Of a DNA stretch of 64,000 bases, positions 9,172-57,095 are shown in pieces. The notes beneath the pieces were generated by a model that did no database searches, was not told the origin of the DNA, and worked only from the letters and a program-made list of their open reading frames with translations. Source of the stretch: Streptomyces dengpaensis (GTDB lineage: Bacteria; Actinomycetota; Actinomycetes; Streptomycetales; Streptomycetaceae); the NCBI RefSeq assembly GCF_002946835.1, contig NZ_CP026652.1, forward strand, positions 5,890,001-5,954,000, given 5' to 3'. A program made the position numbers and the translations under genes. Within the stretch, counting starts at the first letter, position 1; every line of letters starts with the position of its first letter.

Positions 9172-11109
9172 CTACGCGCCCCCCACCGCCGTCAGCAGCG
9201 CCAGCGGTGCCGCCGCCGACCTCGACTCCCGTACGCACGCGTGCGGGTAGGGCACCGGCTCGCCGTGGGTGTCGCGGCCGTAGCCCGCGAGGACCTCGGG
9301 GAGGCGGTGGCCGGCGGCGGTGGCCGCGTCGACGAGGGCGTGGGCGACCGTGCGGGCCTCGTCGTGCAGGCCGTAGCGGGCGAGGCCCAGGGTGATCAGC
9401 GCGTTGTCGTGGGGCCAGACCGAGCCGCGGTGGTACGAGAGCGGGTGGTACGCCGGCTGGTCGGCGGCCAGGGTGCGGACGCCCCAGCCGGAGAAGAAGT
9501 CCGGTTCGAGGAGGCGGCGGCCGACCAGTTCGCCGTACTCCTTGTCGAGCAGACCCGACCAGAGCAGATGGCCCGCGTCCGACGCGAGGGCGTCCACGTG
9601 GTGGCCGTCGCCGTCCAACGCCAGTGCGGGGAAGGCGTGTTCGTCCATCCAGAAGTCCCGCTGGAAGCGGTCGCGGAGGTCACCGGCGGCCTGTTCGAGG
9701 AGGGCCGCGTAGACCTCGTCGCCCCAGACCGTGCGGGCCAGCTGCGCGGTGCGGCGCAGCGCGTCGTACGCGTACCCCTGCGCGCCCGCCGCCATCACCG
9801 GGCCGCTGGGGCGGCTGCCGTCGGCCGAACAGATGGCGCCCGGGGAGTCCTTCCAGTTCTGGTTGGCGAGGCCGCCGCCGTCCGCGCGGTAGACGAGATA
9901 GCCGCGCGAGGTCAGACCGCCGTGGTCCAGCATCCAGCCGATCGCCGCGCGGGCGTTGGCCTCGAGGCGGCGGGCCAGGGAGACATCCCCCGTCTTCTCG
10001 GTGTACGCGCCGAGCAGCACCAGGAACAGCGGCGTCGCGTCCACCGAACCGTAGTAACGCCCGTACGGCACCTGCCCGAAGTGCGCCAGCTCACCGTGCC
10101 GCACCTCGTGCACGATCTTGCCGGGCTGGGCGACCGCGCCGGCCCCCGGCTCCGTCGCCTGGGTCGCGGCGAGCGCGGGCAGCGTCGCGGCGGCGAGGTG
10201 GGGACGGTAGGGGAGCGCGAAGAGGGAGGTGAGCAGCGCGTCGCGGCCCAACAGGGTGAGGAACCAGGGGACTCCGGCCGCGGGGACGCGCAGTTCCTCG
10301 CCGTCCGGGCCCGTCGCCGGGATCTGCAGCACCGCCAGGTCGGAGAGGCCCCGCGCACAGGCAGCGGCCAGCTCCGGCCAGCCGGTCGGGAAGGGCACGC
10401 CCTGCGCGAACTCCCCTTCCAGAGCAAGGAGTTGTTCAGTGGCGGCGGCGGGGGAGAGCGGTACCCGGGGTTCCCGCGCGGCGCCGTGCGGACGCGCCGC
10501 GACCCGCAGCGACAGCTCCGCCGAACCGTGCGGTTCGAGATCGAGGGTCCATACGAGGCGACGCGCGCCCGTGCCCGTCTCCTCGACGCCGTCCGGGGCG
10601 GGCTCGGAGGTGACGGTCGTGGACGACCGCCACTCGCCGCGCCGATAGCTGAACTCCACGCCGTCGTCGAGGACTTGACGCTGACGGACGACGCCTGTCT
10701 TGGCGTACGTACGGTAGTCCGAGCGCAGCTCGAACTGGTCCGTGAAGTCGGCGTCCGCGGTGACCGCGATACGGACCGTCGTGGGCGCCGGGCGGTTGCT
10801 GGTGACGCGTAACGCCTCCACGAACGCGCCGTCGGCGACGGCCTGTTCACGGAAGAGCGTGTATGCGGGCGGCTCGTTGCGGCCGCCGCGCGGCACCAGT
10901 ACGCAGCGTGCCGTGTCGCCGTCCGCGACCGGAGAGAGCGCCTCGGGCACCGCGCCGTCTACGGTCAGCTGCCAGCGGCTGAGGTGCCGGGCGTCGCGTA
11001 CGAATAAGCCGTCCGGGGAGCTGCCGCTCCGGACGCCGCTGATGTCCCCGCCGTCGCCTACGACGGCGAACGTCCCACCGTGCACGAGCAGATGATGCCG
11101 GTTCGTCAT
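9172..11109 (-). CDS. Glycogen debranching enzyme-like amylo-alpha-1,6-glucosidase
   Basis: 645 residues, cytoplasmic. N-terminal glycogen-debranching beta-sandwich domain (HHLLVHGGTFAVVGDGGDI, LFVRDARHLSRWQL) followed by an (alpha/alpha)6-barrel hydrolase domain with GVPWFLTLLGRDALLTS, KIVHEVRHGELAHF, DATPLFLVLLG, NQNWKDS and SVWPHDNALI. Likely hydrolyses alpha-glucosidic branches of glycogen-like or trehalose-derived sugars. The start at 11109 has GGGAGGGG at 8 nt; the longer frame to 11316 is the out-of-frame shadow of the neighbouring gene's repetitive tail. It overlaps the upstream hydrolase by ATGA, so the two are translationally coupled. Confidence 0.9.
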   Translation of the reverse strand: MTNRHHLLVHGGTFAVVGDGGDISGVRSGSSPDGLFVRDARHLSRWQLTVDGAVPEALSPVADGDTARCVLVPRGGRNEPPAYTLFREQAVADGAFVEALRVTSNRPAPTTVRIAVTADADFTDQFELRSDYRTYAKTGVVRQRQVLDDGVEFSYRRGEWRSSTTVTSEPAPDGVEETGTGARRLVWTLDLEPHGSAELSLRVAARPHGAAREPRVPLSPAAATEQLLALEGEFAQGVPFPTGWPELAAACARGLSDLAVLQIPATGPDGEELRVPAAGVPWFLTLLGRDALLTSLFALPYRPHLAAATLPALAATQATEPGAGAVAQPGKIVHEVRHGELAHFGQVPYGRYYGSVDATPLFLVLLGAYTEKTGDVSLARRLEANARAAIGWMLDHGGLTSRGYLVYRADGGGLANQNWKDSPGAICSADGSRPSGPVMAAGAQGYAYDALRRTAQLARTVWGDEVYAALLEQAAGDLRDRFQRDFWMDEHAFPALALDGDGHHVDALASDAGHLLWSGLLDKEYGELVGRRLLEPDFFSGWGVRTLAADQPAYHPLSYHRGSVWPHDNALITLGLARYGLHDEARTVAHALVDAATAAGHRLPEVLAGYGRDTHGEPVPYPHACVRESRSAAAPLALLTAVGGA

Positions 11110-13265
11110 CCCCGGTCCCCTCCCTTGGCGCCCGTCTCGATTGCGCTCTGTCCCATTGGGCTGTGTGTCGTCGTACTGTGCGCGGTTGCGCCGTGTGCAG
11201 TGGTGCTGTGCGGCGTTGTGCCGTGTGCGGTGGTGCTGTGCGCCGTTGTGCTGTCCGTCTTGTCGAACGCGGAGTGCCCCGGGTGGGACACGACATGGTC
11301 CGCCTGGTCCGCCCACGAGGGCTCATGCAGCAGGTCCAGCGTCAGCGCGGCCGTCCAGCTGAAACCGAACGCCCCGCAGGCCTCGCCGGTGTACGGATCC
11401 ACGTACTCCGCGAACCCGGACTCCCCGGCGGTGTCGAGCAGAGCGGCCCGCAGTTCGTCCGCCCGCCCGTGCTCCCCGTGCAGCCGCAGCCCGCGCTCCA
11501 GCAGCCAGTTGGTGTTGAACCAGGCTGGCCCCCGCCAGTACCGATGCGGGTCGAACGCGTGCCCGGTGAGGTCGTAGCTGGGCACGAGCCGCGTGTCCCC
11601 GCCGAGCCCGAAGTGCGGTCCGCTCGCGGTGCGTACGAGCGCGGCGGCGATGTCGCGCGGCAGCGCGGGGAGGATGAGCGGGAGCAGCCCGGCGACACTG
11701 CGCTTGGCGATGAGGGCGCCGCTGGGAGAGCGGCGCTCTGAAACGCGAGTGTTGCTCTGCGAGCACTGCTCTGAAGCGCGAGTGCTGCTCTGAGAGCACT
11801 GCTCTGAAGCGCGAGCGCCGCTCCGGGAGCGCGGCTCCGATTCGTGAGCGCCGCTGCTGGGAGAGCGGTGCTCTGAAGCGCGTGGGCTGGACCGCGAGCA
11901 CTGCTCTGAAGCGCGAGCACCGCTCGGGGAGCGCGGCTCCGATTCGTGAGCGCCGCTGCTGGGAGAGCGGTGCTCTGAAGTGCGTGGGCGGCACCGCGAG
12001 CACTGCTCTGAGGCGCGAGCGTTGTCCTGTGAGCGCCGCTCCGATTCGCGAGCACCGTTCGGCGAGCAGCACCGCTCCGGACCAAGAGCACCGCTCCGAG
12101 ACTCCTGGTCACATACGCGAGCACCGCTCTCGCCCCGAACATTCTCGCCCCCACTGTTCGCGGCCTCGCCGTACACATCCCGGCAGAAGAACATCCCCTC
12201 CGCCGGATCCCACAGCCGCTCCACGAGCGCAGCCGTGAGGCGCTCGGCGCGCGCGTGCCGAGCGGTCCCCGTCGCGCCCAGTTCCTGGGCGATGCGCGCC
12301 AGCGCGTGTTCCGACGCGATCAGCAGGGCGTTGAACGCCGGGTCCTCGACCGCGAACTCGCCTGCCCGTCTCCCGCCACCACCCTCAACCGAGGCCCTGC
12401 GGGCCACCCCCTCGTCTTCCCCGTCCGCGTATCCACGGTCCCGGTAGTCGGTGGCGAGGCGCACGTACCGCCCGTAGTCGAGGTCCGTCGGACGGTCCTC
12501 GGGGGTGCCGTGGTCGAGGTCGGCACGGCGGAAGGAGCGGGACGGGGCCGGGGTGACGCGGCTCAGCGGGGCGTCCCAGCAGGGGCTGTTGTCCATGCCC
12601 TGTTCCCAGGGGTGGACCACGGACGCGAGCCCTCCGCCGCCCAGGTCCCGGCGGTGCAGGAGATAACGGTGCCAGGCCGCAAGCCTGGGATACATCCGGG
12701 AGAGGAACGAACGGGCCCGTGACAGGCCCGGATCGGCCCGGTGCACCAGCCACACGGCGAGCGCGTGCACCGGTGGCTGCACGATGCCCGACGTCTGTAC
12801 GGTGCGCGGGGCGCCCGCAGCGCGCCCCGCGGTCGAGGAGCGCCAGAAGTCGGGGCTCGGGAAGTACGCGTCCAGCGGCACGGAGGGGTTGAACACGATG
12901 TGCGGGATCCGCCCGTCGGCCCACTGCGCGCCGAGCAGGGTCGCCAGCTCCACCTGCGCCCTCAGCGGGGACAGATGGCGGAGTCCGATCGCGATGAACG
13001 CGGAGTCCCACGACCACTGGTGCGGATACAGGCCGCGCGAGGGCACCGTGGACGTTCCCGTCCAGTTGCCGTTCAGTACCCGGGCCGCCCTGAGGTGCAG
13101 TGACCCCGTCAGCTCGGCGGAATCGTATACAAGTGATCCGGAATGGGTGATCCCGCCCGGACCGGGCGAAGGGGGCGGGCCGGAAGGGTGCGCGGGACTG
13201 CCGGAGGCGCGCGGGGGAGTTGCGCTACCCGTGCGCAGGGCGGTGAGCTGGGTTCTGCGGTCCAC
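11106..13265 (-). CDS. MGH1/GH63-like glycoside hydrolase with internal tandem-repeat insertion
   Basis: 719 residues from a GTG at 13265 (GGGGAG upstream). The hydrolase core is an (alpha/alpha)6 barrel of the trehalase/GH63 type: LYPHQWSWDSAFIAIGLRHL, ADGRIPHIVFNP, VVHPWEQGMDNSPCWD with likely catalytic acid, then HRYWRGPAWFNTNWLLERGL and FGFSWTAALTLDLL. Between the helices ending FFCRDVYGE and beginning RSVAGLLPL, where I expect a short loop from family memory, about 145 residues of an 11-residue repeat ([RH]xSExxSxSxx) are inserted. A second 5-residue repeat (AHxTT) forms the C-terminal tail. Coupled to the debranching gene by ATGA; divergent from a ROK regulator that probably controls both. 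Confidence 0.85.
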   Translation of the reverse strand: MDRRTQLTALRTGSATPPRASGSPAHPSGPPPSPGPGGITHSGSLVYDSAELTGSLHLRAARVLNGNWTGTSTVPSRGLYPHQWSWDSAFIAIGLRHLSPLRAQVELATLLGAQWADGRIPHIVFNPSVPLDAYFPSPDFWRSSTAGRAAGAPRTVQTSGIVQPPVHALAVWLVHRADPGLSRARSFLSRMYPRLAAWHRYLLHRRDLGGGGLASVVHPWEQGMDNSPCWDAPLSRVTPAPSRSFRRADLDHGTPEDRPTDLDYGRYVRLATDYRDRGYADGEDEGVARRASVEGGGGRRAGEFAVEDPAFNALLIASEHALARIAQELGATGTARHARAERLTAALVERLWDPAEGMFFCRDVYGEAANSGGENVRGESGARVCDQESRSGALGPERCCSPNGARESERRSQDNARASEQCSRCRPRTSEHRSPSSGAHESEPRSPSGARASEQCSRSSPRASEHRSPSSGAHESEPRSRSGARASEQCSQSSTRASEQCSQSNTRVSERRSPSGALIAKRSVAGLLPLILPALPRDIAAALVRTASGPHFGLGGDTRLVPSYDLTGHAFDPHRYWRGPAWFNTNWLLERGLRLHGEHGRADELRAALLDTAGESGFAEYVDPYTGEACGAFGFSWTAALTLDLLHEPSWADQADHVVSHPGHSAFDKTDSTTAHSTTAHGTTPHSTTAHGATAHSTTTHSPMGQSAIETGAKGGDRG
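11150..11255. repeat. 15-bp repeats encoding an AHxTT tail
   Basis: Degenerate 15-bp repeat array at the 3' end of the GH63-like gene, coding for repeated A-H-S/G-T-T pentapeptides. It ends about 40 bp before the debranching-enzyme start codon. Confidence 0.8.
11715..12150. repeat. 33-bp minisatellite with 102-bp higher-order unit inside the hydrolase gene
   Basis: About twelve units of 33-36 bp, each coding for an 11-12 residue Ser/Arg/Glu-rich repeat. Two 33-bp units near 11762 and 11795 are almost identical. A higher-order 102-bp block recurs (for example 11831 and 11933). Length is always a multiple of 3, so the frame is kept. Confidence 0.92.
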
Positions 13266-13340
13266 TCAGGTCTCCCCGAAGACGTCCGGCCGACCAGTTC
13301 GGCAGTAGCTACCGTAGGGTTACGTCTATTTAACACGCAA

Positions 13341-13363
13341 AACTCAATATGTAATGCTGAGTT
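13341..13363. promoter_or_regulatory. AACTCA-N11-TGAGTT inverted repeat in the ROK/hydrolase divergon
   Basis: Perfect 6-bp inverted repeat (13341-13346 and 13358-13363) with an A/T-rich centre, in the only A/T-rich stretch between the divergent ROK regulator and the hydrolase operon. Position and symmetry fit a ROK-repressor operator; this is inference. Confidence 0.55.
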
Positions 13364-13384
13364 GGGGAACGCAAGAGGGTGCCC

Positions 13385-14623
13385 ATGACAGGAAGGGCGG
13401 GGAGAGCCGTGAAGGCCGGGAATCAGGCAAGCGCCGGAGATCTGCTCGAACTCGTGCGCAGCGGCCGGGCGACGACGCGCGGCGCGCTGCAGCAGGCAAC
13501 AGGGCTGTCGCGGGCTACAGTCGGCCACCGGCTCGACCGGCTCTTTCGCGCGGGCTGGCTGCGTGAGGGCGCGGGAGGCCCCGTCGACTCCCCGCTCGGC
13601 GGGCGCCCGTCGATCACCCTCGAATTCGACGACGCCCATGCAGTCGTCCTCGCCGCCGACCTCGACACCCGGCACGGCCGGGCGGCCGTTCTCACCCTGG
13701 CCGGCGAGATCCTGGCCGAGCACACGGGTGCCCTGGTGATCGACGAGGGGCCGGAGGTGGTCCTCGGCGAACTCGGGCGCTGGTTCGCCGAGTTGCTGGA
13801 GAAGGCGGGGCAGCGCGCGGACGCGGTGTGCGGCATCGGGCTCGCGGTGCCGGGTCCGGTGGACAGCGACACCGGCCGCGTGGTGCAGCCGCCGATCATG
13901 CCGGGCTGGGACGGCTACGACATAAGAGGCCGCCTGGGCCGCGCCTTCGCGGAGCACACAGGAGCCGGGGCCGGGGAGGGCGGCACCCGGGTTCCCGTAC
14001 TCGTCGACAACGACGCCAACCTCATGGCGTACGGCGAACAGCGCACCGGATACCCGGACTGCTCGGCGTTCGCCCTGGTCAAGGTCTCCACCGGTATCGG
14101 CGCGGGCATGGTCGTCGGGGGCAGCATCTACCGGGGCGTCGACGGAGGCGCCGGCGACATCGGGCATATCCGGGTCGGGGCGGACGCGTTGTGCCGGTGC
14201 GGTGCGTACGGCTGTCTGGCCGCCGTCGCGAGCGGTGGCGCGGTGGCGCGCAGGCTCGCCGAGTCCGGGGTCCCGGCCGCCTCCGGATCGGATGTGCGCG
14301 ACCTGCTGGCGGCCGGGCACCCGGAGGCGACGGCGCTCGCGCGGGAGGCGGGGCGCCAGGTCGGTGACGTACTGGCCACCGTGGTGACGCTGCTCAACCC
14401 CGGCGTGCTGATGATCGCCGGAGATTTGGCCGGAACTCCCTTCCTCACGGGCGTGCGCGAACTGATGTACCAGCGGGCGCTGCCCCGCTCCACCGCTCAT
14501 CTGGACGTGGTGACCTCGCGACTCGGCGAGCGCGCCGGGCTCGTGGGCGCCGGGGCGCTGGTCGTGGAGTACCTGTACGCGCCCGAGCGGGCCGAGGAGC
14601 GGCTGGCGGCGCTGGGCGTGTGA
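13385..14623 (+). CDS. ROK family transcriptional regulator
   Basis: 412-residue sugar-responsive repressor. N-terminal winged helix-turn-helix (~residues 12-60: LLELVRSGRATTRGALQQATGLSRATVGHRLDRL) followed by the ROK sugar-kinase-like domain: phosphate-1 type segment, GIGLAVPGPVD, VDNDANLMAYGE with the conserved Asp, and the zinc motif GHIRV...CRCGAYGCL. ATG at 13385 preferred over GTG 13379 because AGAGGG then lies at normal distance. It is divergent from the two hydrolase genes, so probably represses them and responds to a glucose-type sugar. Confidence 0.93.
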   Translation: MTGRAGRAVKAGNQASAGDLLELVRSGRATTRGALQQATGLSRATVGHRLDRLFRAGWLREGAGGPVDSPLGGRPSITLEFDDAHAVVLAADLDTRHGRAAVLTLAGEILAEHTGALVIDEGPEVVLGELGRWFAELLEKAGQRADAVCGIGLAVPGPVDSDTGRVVQPPIMPGWDGYDIRGRLGRAFAEHTGAGAGEGGTRVPVLVDNDANLMAYGEQRTGYPDCSAFALVKVSTGIGAGMVVGGSIYRGVDGGAGDIGHIRVGADALCRCGAYGCLAAVASGGAVARRLAESGVPAASGSDVRDLLAAGHPEATALAREAGRQVGDVLATVVTLLNPGVLMIAGDLAGTPFLTGVRELMYQRALPRSTAHLDVVTSRLGERAGLVGAGALVVEYLYAPERAEERLAALGV

Positions 14624-32904: not shown

Positions 32905-33241
32905 GGATCCCCGTCAATGGAAGACATGACCTGGCGGGTGGAGGGGAGCGCCTGGCTCACATGGGCGTCGGTGAGGGCGGTGGGCTTGCCCCCTGGTGTT
33001 TTCCAGTGGCTGTTGGGGCCGCCCGCTTCTTTGGCAGTGTCGTGCTTCCGCGAGCCGGGTAAAGGGCGCTGCGCTTCGCGTCGGCTGCGCCGATCGGCCT
33101 GCGGCCGACCCGTGACTCGGCTCGCTCCAGCACGGGGGAGAAGCGAGCGGACGGCCCGGAAGGGTGGGTGGCCGAGGTGCGCTTGCGGGCGGGGTCGGCT
33201 GCGTCGCGGTCCGGGGTGGGGCGGGCGCGCTGGCGGCTCGC

Positions 33242-33461
33242 CTGCACGCCGGGTCGGCTTAGCGGCCTGCGGGTGAGTGGATGGGGCGCGCTCGTGGGTC
33301 GGGGCCACGCCCCGTGGGCTTGGCCGCTTGCGGGTGGGTGGGGGTGCGCAGCGGCCGGGTGGCGGCACGCCCGGTGGGCTTGGCGGCTTGCGGGTGGGGA
33401 CGGGTGCGCAGCGGCGGGGTGGCAGCACGCCTGGTGGGCTCAGCGGCTTGCTGGTGGGGAC
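33242..33461. repeat. 60-bp tandem repeat, about 3.6 copies
   Basis: Units at 33314-33373 and 33374-33433 are nearly identical; a degenerate unit precedes (from ~33252) and a partial one follows (33434-33461). Each unit has GTGGGCTTGGCGGCTTGC near its start and GTGCGCAGCGGC in the middle. Confidence 0.9.
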
Positions 33462-33481
33462 GCATCCGGGGGGCCTCTGGG

Positions 33482-44674: not shown

Positions 44675-46045
44675 ATGGAAGGCACTGCACCGAAGGCATA
44701 CGAGAACCACGCGGCATACGAGAACCACGCGGCATACGAGAACCACGCGGCGTACGGCGGGTACGACGACTCCGCCGTCGAGCGCTGGGCCGTCGAGCCC
44801 GACAAACGCCCCGGGCGCACCGCCTTCCAGCGCGACCGCGCGCGCGTGCTGCACTCCGCCGCCCTGCGACGGCTCGCCGGAAAGACCCAGGTCGTCACCC
44901 CCGGCACCCGAAGCCAGGTGTGGGACGCCAGCCCGCGTACGCGTCTGACGCACTCCCTGGAGTGCGCCCAGGTCGGCCGCGAGCTGGGCGCCGCGCTCGG
45001 CTGCGACCCCGACCTGGTCGAGGCGGCCTGCCTCTCGCACGACCTGGGCCATCCGCCCTTCGGGCACAACGGCGAACAGGCGCTGAACGAGTTCGCGGAG
45101 GACTGCGGCGGCTTCGAGGGCAACGCGCAGTCCCTGCGGCTGCTCGCGCGGATCGAGCCCAAGCGATTCGTACCGGACAACGACACAGGGGAACTGGTCA
45201 GCGTGGGCCTCAACCTCACCCGCGCCGTCCTCGACGCCGCCACCAAGTACCCGTGGCCGCGCGGCGCCCACCCCACCGACGCCACGTCGTCGAAATTCGG
45301 GGTCTACGAGGACGACCGTCCCGTCTTCGACTGGGTCCGCAAGGGCGCCCCGGGCACCCGTACGTGCTTCGAGGCCCAGGTCATGGACTGGTCGGACGAC
45401 GTGGCGTACTCGGTGCACGACGTCGAGGACGGTCTGCACGCGGGCCACATCGACCCCAACTGCCTGCAGGCCGAGCCCGAGCGGCAGGAGATCTTCGCGG
45501 TGGCCATCGGGCGGTACGTGCCCGCGGACACGGATCCCGCCGAGCTGGCCGAGGCCCTCGACCGGCTCCTCGACCAGGAGTGGTGGCCGCACGGATACGA
45601 CGGAACGGCCGTCGCGCAGGCCCGGCTGAAGGACGCCACCAGCCAGCTCATCGGCCGCTTCTGCCTGGCCGCGGAGGGCGCCACGCGCGAGACGTACGGC
45701 AGCGGGCGGCTCACGCGGTACGGCGCCGAACTCGTCGTACCGAAAGGCGCGCGCTATGAATGCGCGGTCCTCAAGGCGGTCGCCGACCGGTACGTCATGC
45801 AGCGCGCCGAGCAGGAACGGTTGCGCGCCAATCAGCGGATCGTCGTCGCCGAGCTGGCCGAGGCGCTCACGGCCCGCGCGCCCGACGGACTGGATCCGCA
45901 GTTCCGGGCGCTGTTCGACCAGGCGACCGAGGACCGCGCCCGCAAGCGGGTGATCGTCGACCAGATCGCCTCGCTCACCGACGCCTCGGCGCGTTCCCTG
46001 CATCTCAGGCTCACCACGCGTTCCCATGGGGGCCGTGGAGTGTGA
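44675..46045 (+). CDS. dgt: Deoxyguanosinetriphosphate triphosphohydrolase
   Basis: Hydrolyses dGTP (or dNTPs) to deoxynucleoside and triphosphate. 456 residues, HD-domain: [45 protein letters not shown] with the HD pair, and [15 protein letters not shown]. The N-terminus carries three exact copies of a hexapeptide (AYENHA) coded by an 18-bp repeat, outside the conserved domain. The sequence around the ATG lacks a clear ribosome site. Upstream of the flavoprotein gene and dnaG. Confidence 0.95.
44696..44749. repeat. Perfect 18-bp tandem repeat x3 at the 5' end of dgt
   Basis: Units 44696-44713, 44714-44731 and 44732-44749 are identical (GCATACGAGAACCACGCG); a partial GCGTAC follows. In-frame, so copy number changes would add or remove six residues. 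Confidence 0.97.
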
Positions 46046-56938: not shown

Positions 56939-57011
56939 TCCTCCGTAGCTCAATTGGCAGAGCAGCCGGCTGTTAACCGGCAGGTTACTGGTTCGAGTCC
57001 AGTCGGGGGAG
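56939..57011 (+). tRNA. tRNA-Asn (anticodon GTT), copy 1
   Basis: 73 nt without encoded CCA. Acceptor TCCTCCG pairs with CGGGGGA (57004-57010); anticodon GTT at 56972-56974 in loop CTGTTAA; T-loop GGTTCGAGTCC. D-loop GCTCAATTGGCAGAGC. Confidence 0.97.
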
Positions 57012-57016
57012 CTCGA

Positions 57017-57089
57017 TCTCCTGTAGCTCAATTGGCAGAGCAGCCGGCTGTTAACCGGCAGGTTACTGGTTCGAGTCCAGTCGGGAGAG
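57017..57089 (+). tRNA. tRNA-Asn (anticodon GTT), copy 2
   Basis: 73 nt, identical to copy 1 except for the acceptor stem (TCTCCTG with CGGGAGA, 57082-57088). Anticodon at 57050-57052. It starts 78 bp after copy 1 and is followed by a terminator. Confidence 0.97.
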
Positions 57090-57095
57090 CAACGG

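Follow-up and report, generated by a model that had tools for sequence, protein, structure and literature searches.

There are precedents, each known separately, for tandem repeats in coding DNA, for palindromic elements that are translated and for regulators that bind inside genes. Rickettsia palindromic elements are palindromic DNA carried in frame within genes, as single and longer elements found in many genes. In Mycobacterium tuberculosis, about one-fourth of factors have 80% or more of their top peaks within coding sequences (PMC4301838). For the enzyme family considered here, a described member is the mycobacterial enzyme MhGgH (PDB 5ohc), with catalytic positions Asp182 and Glu419, five mobile loops A–E (residues 23–38, 81–91, 193–205, 346–381 and 430–434) and an A' cap region (163–252), as set out in the sections seen of PMC6608630. 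The Streptomyces gene described below belongs to this family and carries, in one of its loops, a translated array of palindromes whose relatives cluster upstream of a TetR-type regulator gene.

The window is the whole 64,000-nucleotide stretch of Streptomyces dengpaensis DNA that was analysed (Table 1). The protein encoded by the array-bearing gene matches the Pfam family MGH1-like_GH (PF22422) at 377.6 bits, split into two stretches, and PF03200 at 23.2 bits; its solved relatives, found by sequence (E about 1e-70), are 2z07/4wva of T. thermophilus and the mycobacterial 5ohc. Homology with MhGgH and T. thermophilus MgH (4wva) extends over the whole length and includes the catalytic pair—Asp182 and Glu419 align with D225 and E620 of the window protein, both invariant in the 30 sequences compared. 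The score against the NCBIfam glucosylglycerate hydrolase model is 346.8 bits, under the equivalog cutoff of 550, and this shortfall is not due to the insert because the insert-less ortholog L037 reaches only 366.7 bits. By sequence, the gene encodes a GH63-type MGH1-like hydrolase with glucosylglycerate as a putative substrate. A paralog in the same genome (L124, C1:8326181–8327458) is 70% identical to L037 and has no inserts.

The gene downstream probably starts at an ATG near 11109, which is favoured because the open reading frame as listed runs over the tail array of the hydrolase gene. Between the hydrolase gene and the divergent ROK-family gene lies an inverted repeat (AACTCA-N11-TGAGTT, 13341–13363) that is possibly a ROK operator candidate; one pattern did not find it in eight other loci. 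A sigma-70/terminator scan of 11000–13500 found nothing. Elsewhere in the window we observed an 18-bp tandem repeat (3.4 copies, 44695–44756) that encodes AYENHA repeats near the start of ORF 44675..46045 (+), whose product we take to be a dGTPase; a 60-bp tandem repeat of about four copies (33223–33462), where no convincing gene was seen by eye; and a tandem pair of tRNA-Asn genes that share their anticodon (56939–57090, a 78-bp repeat).

Table 1 Features of the array-bearing locus (positions in the window)
Feature	Position	Strand	Basis
GH63-type glucosylglycerate-hydrolase-like gene, host of the array	11106..13265	(-)	ORF, 719 aa, plus Pfam/NCBIfam/PDB relatives
In-frame insert, 149 aa (residues 365–513), hairpin turn at site B	about 11727–12173	(-)	Alignment to insert-less L037
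Tandem array with a 33-bp (11-codon) unit	11735–12053	(-)	Tandem Repeats Finder, 9.5 copies, score 213
102-bp higher-order repeat	11767–12057	(-)	Tandem Repeats Finder, 2.9 copies, 88% matches, score 447
12 exact 11-bp palindromes GAGCRNYGCTC, plus degenerate copies	11728–12129	(.)	Pattern search
18-aa insertion (residues 283–300), second variable loop (site A)	about 12366–12419	(-)	Alignment to L037
C-terminal tail array of STTAH-type pentapeptides, 15-bp unit x 6.6	11156–11254	(-)	Tandem Repeats Finder
Downstream gene, GDE_N_bis plus MGH1-like domain	9172..11316 as listed	(-)	ORF and Pfam
Divergent ROK-family regulator gene	13379..14623	(+)	Pfam ROK, 151.8 bits

Aligned against L037, the insert measures 447 bp, and both the ORF listing and the translation show the 719-codon frame uninterrupted across the array. 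An earlier note, made from the letters of this DNA, had described a GH63-like hydrolase with an in-frame minisatellite of 33-bp and 102-bp units and a second, pentapeptide array in its tail, all of which holds: the family by the MGH1-like_GH match and solved relatives, the minisatellite by Tandem Repeats Finder, the open frame and the length of the insert, and the tail array by its 15-bp unit. Missing from it was the 18-residue insertion at site A. The score of the 102-bp repeat is the highest of the 62 Tandem Repeats Finder rows in the window. Third-position G+C (GC3) falls to 0.71 in the insert vs 0.87–0.88 in the flanking parts, and the array RNA folds more strongly than shuffles (z -3.9), as expected given the palindromes. 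All 12 exact copies of GAGCRNYGCTC in the window lie in the array (starting at 11728, 11761, 11794, 11813, 11863, 11896, 11915, 11965, 11998, 12031, 12086 and 12119), vs 1.18 expected and at most 3 in 100 shuffles.

We compared the gene with its Streptomyces orthologs. The relatives first taken were the best 80 of 582, which favours genes resembling the query; a wider sample came from a draw of 101, then 392, genomes of the genus Streptomyces, of which 206 of the 392 had a match at E 1e-60, and places were re-queried in 52 genomes picked by match number and E-value. Left out were G280 and G351 (78% identity), six loci without a parsed gene (L017, L113, L125, L149, L158 and L166), 28 duplicates and, by subtraction, 11 rows below 79% identity, which gave a final set of 188 distinct orthologs, window included, with 137 from the draw among the matches listed. 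A paralog group, 67–76% identical, gave 47 matches by eye, all single and unbroken among the matches listed.

Relative to L037, nearly all insertions fall at site A (L037 positions 192–202), at site B (262–267) or in the C-terminal tail (from 396); the others lie at 227–232 in three distant rows and, once, at 304. Site B, a hairpin turn (CRDVR|TGALIPERS), is short in the majority of Streptomyces orthologs. Among the matches listed, 36 of the 137 draw orthologs read have at least 10 extra residues there (26 have at least 20), and 25 of the 137 have at least 10 at site A. The site-B units include the unrelated SDGVR, GGDVR, REPRGEEAR, SDGLSERR and DAVGH, and some inserts are not plainly tandem; units at site A, where some orthologs hold tandem arrays, include GLGGGYEA and DGGYG, and 18-residue inserts related to that of the window are present at site A in other orthologs. 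The parsed C-terminal tails (151 of 188 rows) range from 9 to 178 residues, and the longest, in L095, is repeat-rich. We also observed a duplication of the whole hairpin at site B of L142 and a short AGHRD duplication at site A of L164, which are apparent first steps of array birth.

Lengths differ even between close relatives: the genes of L004 and L133 are 97% identical in DNA, yet carry 89 and 61 inserted residues, respectively, and an insert of constant length among orthologs, which the earlier note had set against its own reading, was not found. In the only pair of loci under one species name, L041 has no extra residues and L077 has six, of another kind. The suggestion of a repeat tolerated in a loop and variable among species is borne out by the unrelated inserts at the same turn; what had been missed is the palindromic DNA nature of the repeat, with its kin elsewhere and with codon choices that follow the palindrome. 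One enzyme turn that repeatedly gains unrelated inserts offers a natural test bed for the birth and tolerance of coding repeats.

Mapped onto the mycobacterial enzyme (with a two-residue offset applied so that Asp182 and Glu419 come right), site A lies near residues 239–244 and would stand at the end of the A' cap region, judging by the alignment; site B lies near 311–314, where similarity is weak. Neither site is inside the mobile loops A–E as delimited in the sections seen of the MhGgH paper. An AlphaFold2 model of the window protein with 29 relatives predicted the insert to be mostly disordered, with pLDDT mostly 28–42, one block of ten at 53 and a predicted helix at 405–423. Most barrel-helix blocks reached 70–97, although other stretches also fell below 50 (for example, 129–147 and 244–264) and the whole model averaged only 58 (pTM 0.63).

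The repeat type of the window (11-residue SGALxSERRSx) was read in 14 of the 188 orthologs, in 2 to about 12 units (9 of the 137 draw orthologs among the matches listed); all 14 inserts are open, at the same turn, in 14 separate genomes. At the DNA level, the repeat unit consists of two 11-bp palindromes, GAGC-RNY-GCTC, set 19 and 14 bp apart, so that the unit measures 33 bp, or 11 codons. The 14 inserts hold 102 GAGCNNNGCTC, vs 17.9 when the same peptides are written in host codons (at most 30 in 1,000 draws) and 24.8 (at most 39) after permuting the codons of each insert—a four- to sixfold excess over what the peptide demands. All 14 inserts exceed every draw in the host-codon test, and the own-codon test is weaker in three short arrays (L146, p 0.12; L151, 0.015; L132, 0.006). 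Translation runs through the palindromes in two frames, in 53 and 49 cases, and never in the third. Codon choice for alanine follows suit: GCT serves for 71 of 119 alanines in window-type inserts, whereas the host genes use it for 27 of 847 and the other site-B inserts for 4 of 205. Successive exact palindromes are separated by 19 bp (36 times), 14 bp (17), 33 bp (17) or other distances (18). On a quick gene tree, the repeat-type label changes 9 times vs 13.7 when shuffled, with at least six changes forced by well-supported branches; with such a count, gains, losses and exchange are therefore indistinguishable.

The same palindrome occurs upstream of a gene for a TetR-type protein, found in 25 of 28 chosen genomes at E 1e-40. 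The protein has the Pfam domains TetR_N and TetR_C_33, and its solved relatives are Rv1816 (5d1r) and SCO4313 (2oi8); in the genome of the window the gene lies at C1:7751857–7752555 (L263). In L242 it is divergent from an F420H2_quin_red gene (Pfam; by eye in others). Of the 25 tetR loci read, one was without a parse; in the remaining 24, with 420 bp upstream counted in each, palindromes were present upstream of every gene (2–6 each, 66 in total), in array-bearing genomes and others alike, and the first 720 bp of the tetR genes held none. The commonest exact step upstream is 53 bp (19 of 24 loci), which also separates the two exact palindromes in the genome of the window; an exact 19-bp step occurs in 8 of 24 and is absent from the other 16, and further degenerate palindromes were seen by eye. 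The 14-bp step was not seen upstream of tetR in the 24 parsed loci, and the array's mode of binding would therefore differ.

Aligned with 300 bp upstream of tetR, window-type inserts scored 25.9 on average, vs 15.4 inside tetR and 12.7 with shuffled regions, and the upstream DNA beat the inside of the gene for 14 of 14 inserts. For the other site-B inserts it did so in 0 of 25 (12.3 vs 17.1); a presumably higher G+C of the tetR gene would favour in-gene alignment of these inserts. The longest words common to window-type inserts and tetR upstream DNA are 15–19 nt, vs 10–12 in-gene (once 16, in L005) and 9–12 for other inserts (once 15). The array spacer matches the promoter spacer at 3.9 of 8 positions vs 2.0 when permuted, with 1.3% of permutations as high. 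Literature searches, judged by titles and the starts of abstracts, returned no study of this TetR-type regulator among the matches listed. Rv1816 is absent from the main text of PMC4301838, and the part seen of PMC9480834 mentions it a single time, in a set of predicted regulators of mmpL3 and mmpL11.

On balance, we favour the reading that a permissive loop took up an operator-like DNA repeat, which then expanded there, with the peptide as a disordered by-product and the palindrome as the putative operator of a TetR-type protein. The insert would then be primarily a DNA element, and its peptide secondary. The operator-like repeat would have arisen in, or been copied into, the hairpin turn and grown there through tandem duplication. 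Since 19 is not divisible by three, the surviving copies would alternate between 19 and 14 bp, adding up to 33 bp, or 11 codons, and so keep the frame. Once translated, the repeat would form a disordered loop of the enzyme, apart from the mobile loops that its solved relative has at the active site. The conservation of half-sites could come from recent copying instead of selection.

The alternative that survives best, although we consider it unlikely, is a dispersed REP-like or satellite-like palindromic repeat of Streptomyces with no regulatory role, for which the region upstream of tetR would be one more site. Palindromes do occur in several other contexts. A search of 20 genomes (spacers of 2–9 allowed; no match with the reversed pattern as control) gave 50 palindrome pairs, 26 in GH63 arrays and 24 outside them, the latter at 19 bp in 23 cases and 20 bp in one; the eight 14-bp pairs of this search, and two more of the own-genome search, were all in GH63 arrays. 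Outside its array, the genome of the window has a single plain hairpin of 18 bp and a single 19-bp pair, the latter within a gene that looks sensor-like by eye. In 25 genomes without an array (spacers of 0–30 allowed), pairs occurred in 9, with one in the control, and these 32 pairs were spaced by 19 bp (16), 38 bp (6), 39 bp (2) or otherwise (8) and never by 14 bp, one pair being a plain hairpin. The prevalence of 19-bp steps in these searches, with 14-bp steps seen only in GH63 arrays, speaks for the reading that we favour. Many of the matches outside the array are orthologs, at the same place in different genomes, and are not independent.

The contexts looked at (15 and 9 loci, plus L127) comprise tetR upstream regions, a Gfo/Idh/MocA-like oxidoreductase gene, the sensor-like gene, other genes and intergenic arrays. 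Several unrelated genes match, and tandem palindrome arrays with 19/38-bp steps (L284, L285, L286 and L289) lie in intergenic DNA of other Streptomyces genomes away from tetR, some of them between gene ends, both as a dispersed repeat would have it. Single palindromes are also moderately more frequent than the reversed-pattern control, with 106 vs 66 in the genome of the window. The Gfo/Idh/MocA-like gene (Pfam, for L241) counts, by contrast, towards the reading that we favour: all six genomes read, which were selected for holding the pair (L241, L243, L245, L247, L249 and L251), carry 2–3 palindromes in it at matching positions; three positions are occupied in five of them and two of those in the sixth, vs 0.03–0.07 palindromes expected from its peptide. 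The excess of single palindromes is absent in one of ten genomes, arrays are few per genome, 16 of the 25 genomes without a GH63 array have no pair at all, and the presence of palindromes upstream of tetR in every parsed locus is what an operator would predict. A literature text search for the palindrome words gave none on Streptomyces, by title, among the matches listed.

Plain local slippage, in which duplication and expansion would have started from the hairpin-strand codons (GALIPERSV) and left the palindromes as a by-product, is improbable in our judgement. The host stretch just after the insert is the best protein match for 4 of the 14 window-type arrays (L004, L031, L118 and L135), which makes a local origin possible on sequence grounds; for the window, whose best match lies elsewhere, only 4% of other blocks equal the score of the flank, and the L142 and L164 duplications are of the kind that slippage would produce. 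Protein-level tests for seeding by adjacent codons were positive for 9 of 39 site-B and 1 of 25 site-A inserts. At the DNA level there is no general seed signal (6 of 40 inserts at site B and 2 of 25 at site A pass the 5% level, and the site-B mean rank fraction is 0.47), and slippage leaves unexplained both the match of all 14 inserts to tetR upstream DNA and the 19-bp pairs elsewhere.

Selection of the Ser/Arg/Glu-rich loop as a scaffold or modification site is very improbable, and the protein-interaction scaffold considered in the earlier note is not borne out: the reading frame does stay intact and the peptide has a polar, repetitive character, but the insert is mostly disordered by prediction, the same turn in orthologs has unrelated peptides or none, GC3 drops within the insert, and the near-identical genes of L004 and L133 stand 28 inserted residues apart. 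An assembly artefact is extremely improbable, because, although repeats are often misassembled and the related intergenic array L284 is interrupted by N, the genome of the window is in 3 contigs and all 14 genomes with a window-type array have it open at the same turn.

Capture and expansion of an operator-like repeat, the reading we favour, would mean that the identity of a peptide repeat is set by a DNA palindrome and that the reading frame apparently reshapes the spacing of operator-like sites. Whether such an array also works as one is a more tentative matter. It is possible, rather than probable, that the enzyme's frame holds a functioning operator array, with DNA that binds a TetR-type regulator while encoding a disordered loop, a frame that turns a plain 19-bp spacing into an alternation of 19 and 14 bp, and an effect as sponge or roadblock that depends on copy number. 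Least certain of all the steps is that the array would bind the TetR-type protein in the cell and thereby titrate the regulator or slow transcription of the gene. If the TetR protein does bind, coding DNA would conceal a regulatory array that exists in natural copy-number variants across many species. Among the matches listed, literature searches judged by titles and abstract starts gave no study of such repeats and none of operator arrays in coding DNA, nor the combination of features with a frame-driven change of spacing.

Among known systems, the hydrolase resembles MhGgH and T. thermophilus MgH throughout its length and differs from both in that some Streptomyces orthologs bear large variable inserts in two loops; its score also stays under the equivalog cutoff with or without the insert. 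Intragenic VNTRs and minisatellites are likewise frame-keeping tandem repeats that change in copy number, whereas here the DNA word is common to the upstream region of a regulator gene and occurs at two alternating spacings. Rickettsia palindromic elements share the in-frame palindromic DNA, but here short units stand in tandem, and membership of that type was rejected: the whole array occurs once in its own 8.7-Mb genome at E 0.001. PARCELs, as described in the part seen of PMC2996958, are also tandem dyad-symmetric DNA translated in frame; their motif is 25 residues long, amphipathic and present in many proteins, in contrast to an 11-residue unit, predicted to be mostly disordered, in one loop of one family, and we rejected membership on these grounds. 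The candidate binder is a sequence relative of the TetR regulators Rv1816 and SCO4313, with palindromes clustered upstream of its own gene; what sets this locus apart from TetR regulators and their operators is that tandem operator-like sites, with binding putative, lie inside the frame of an enzyme.
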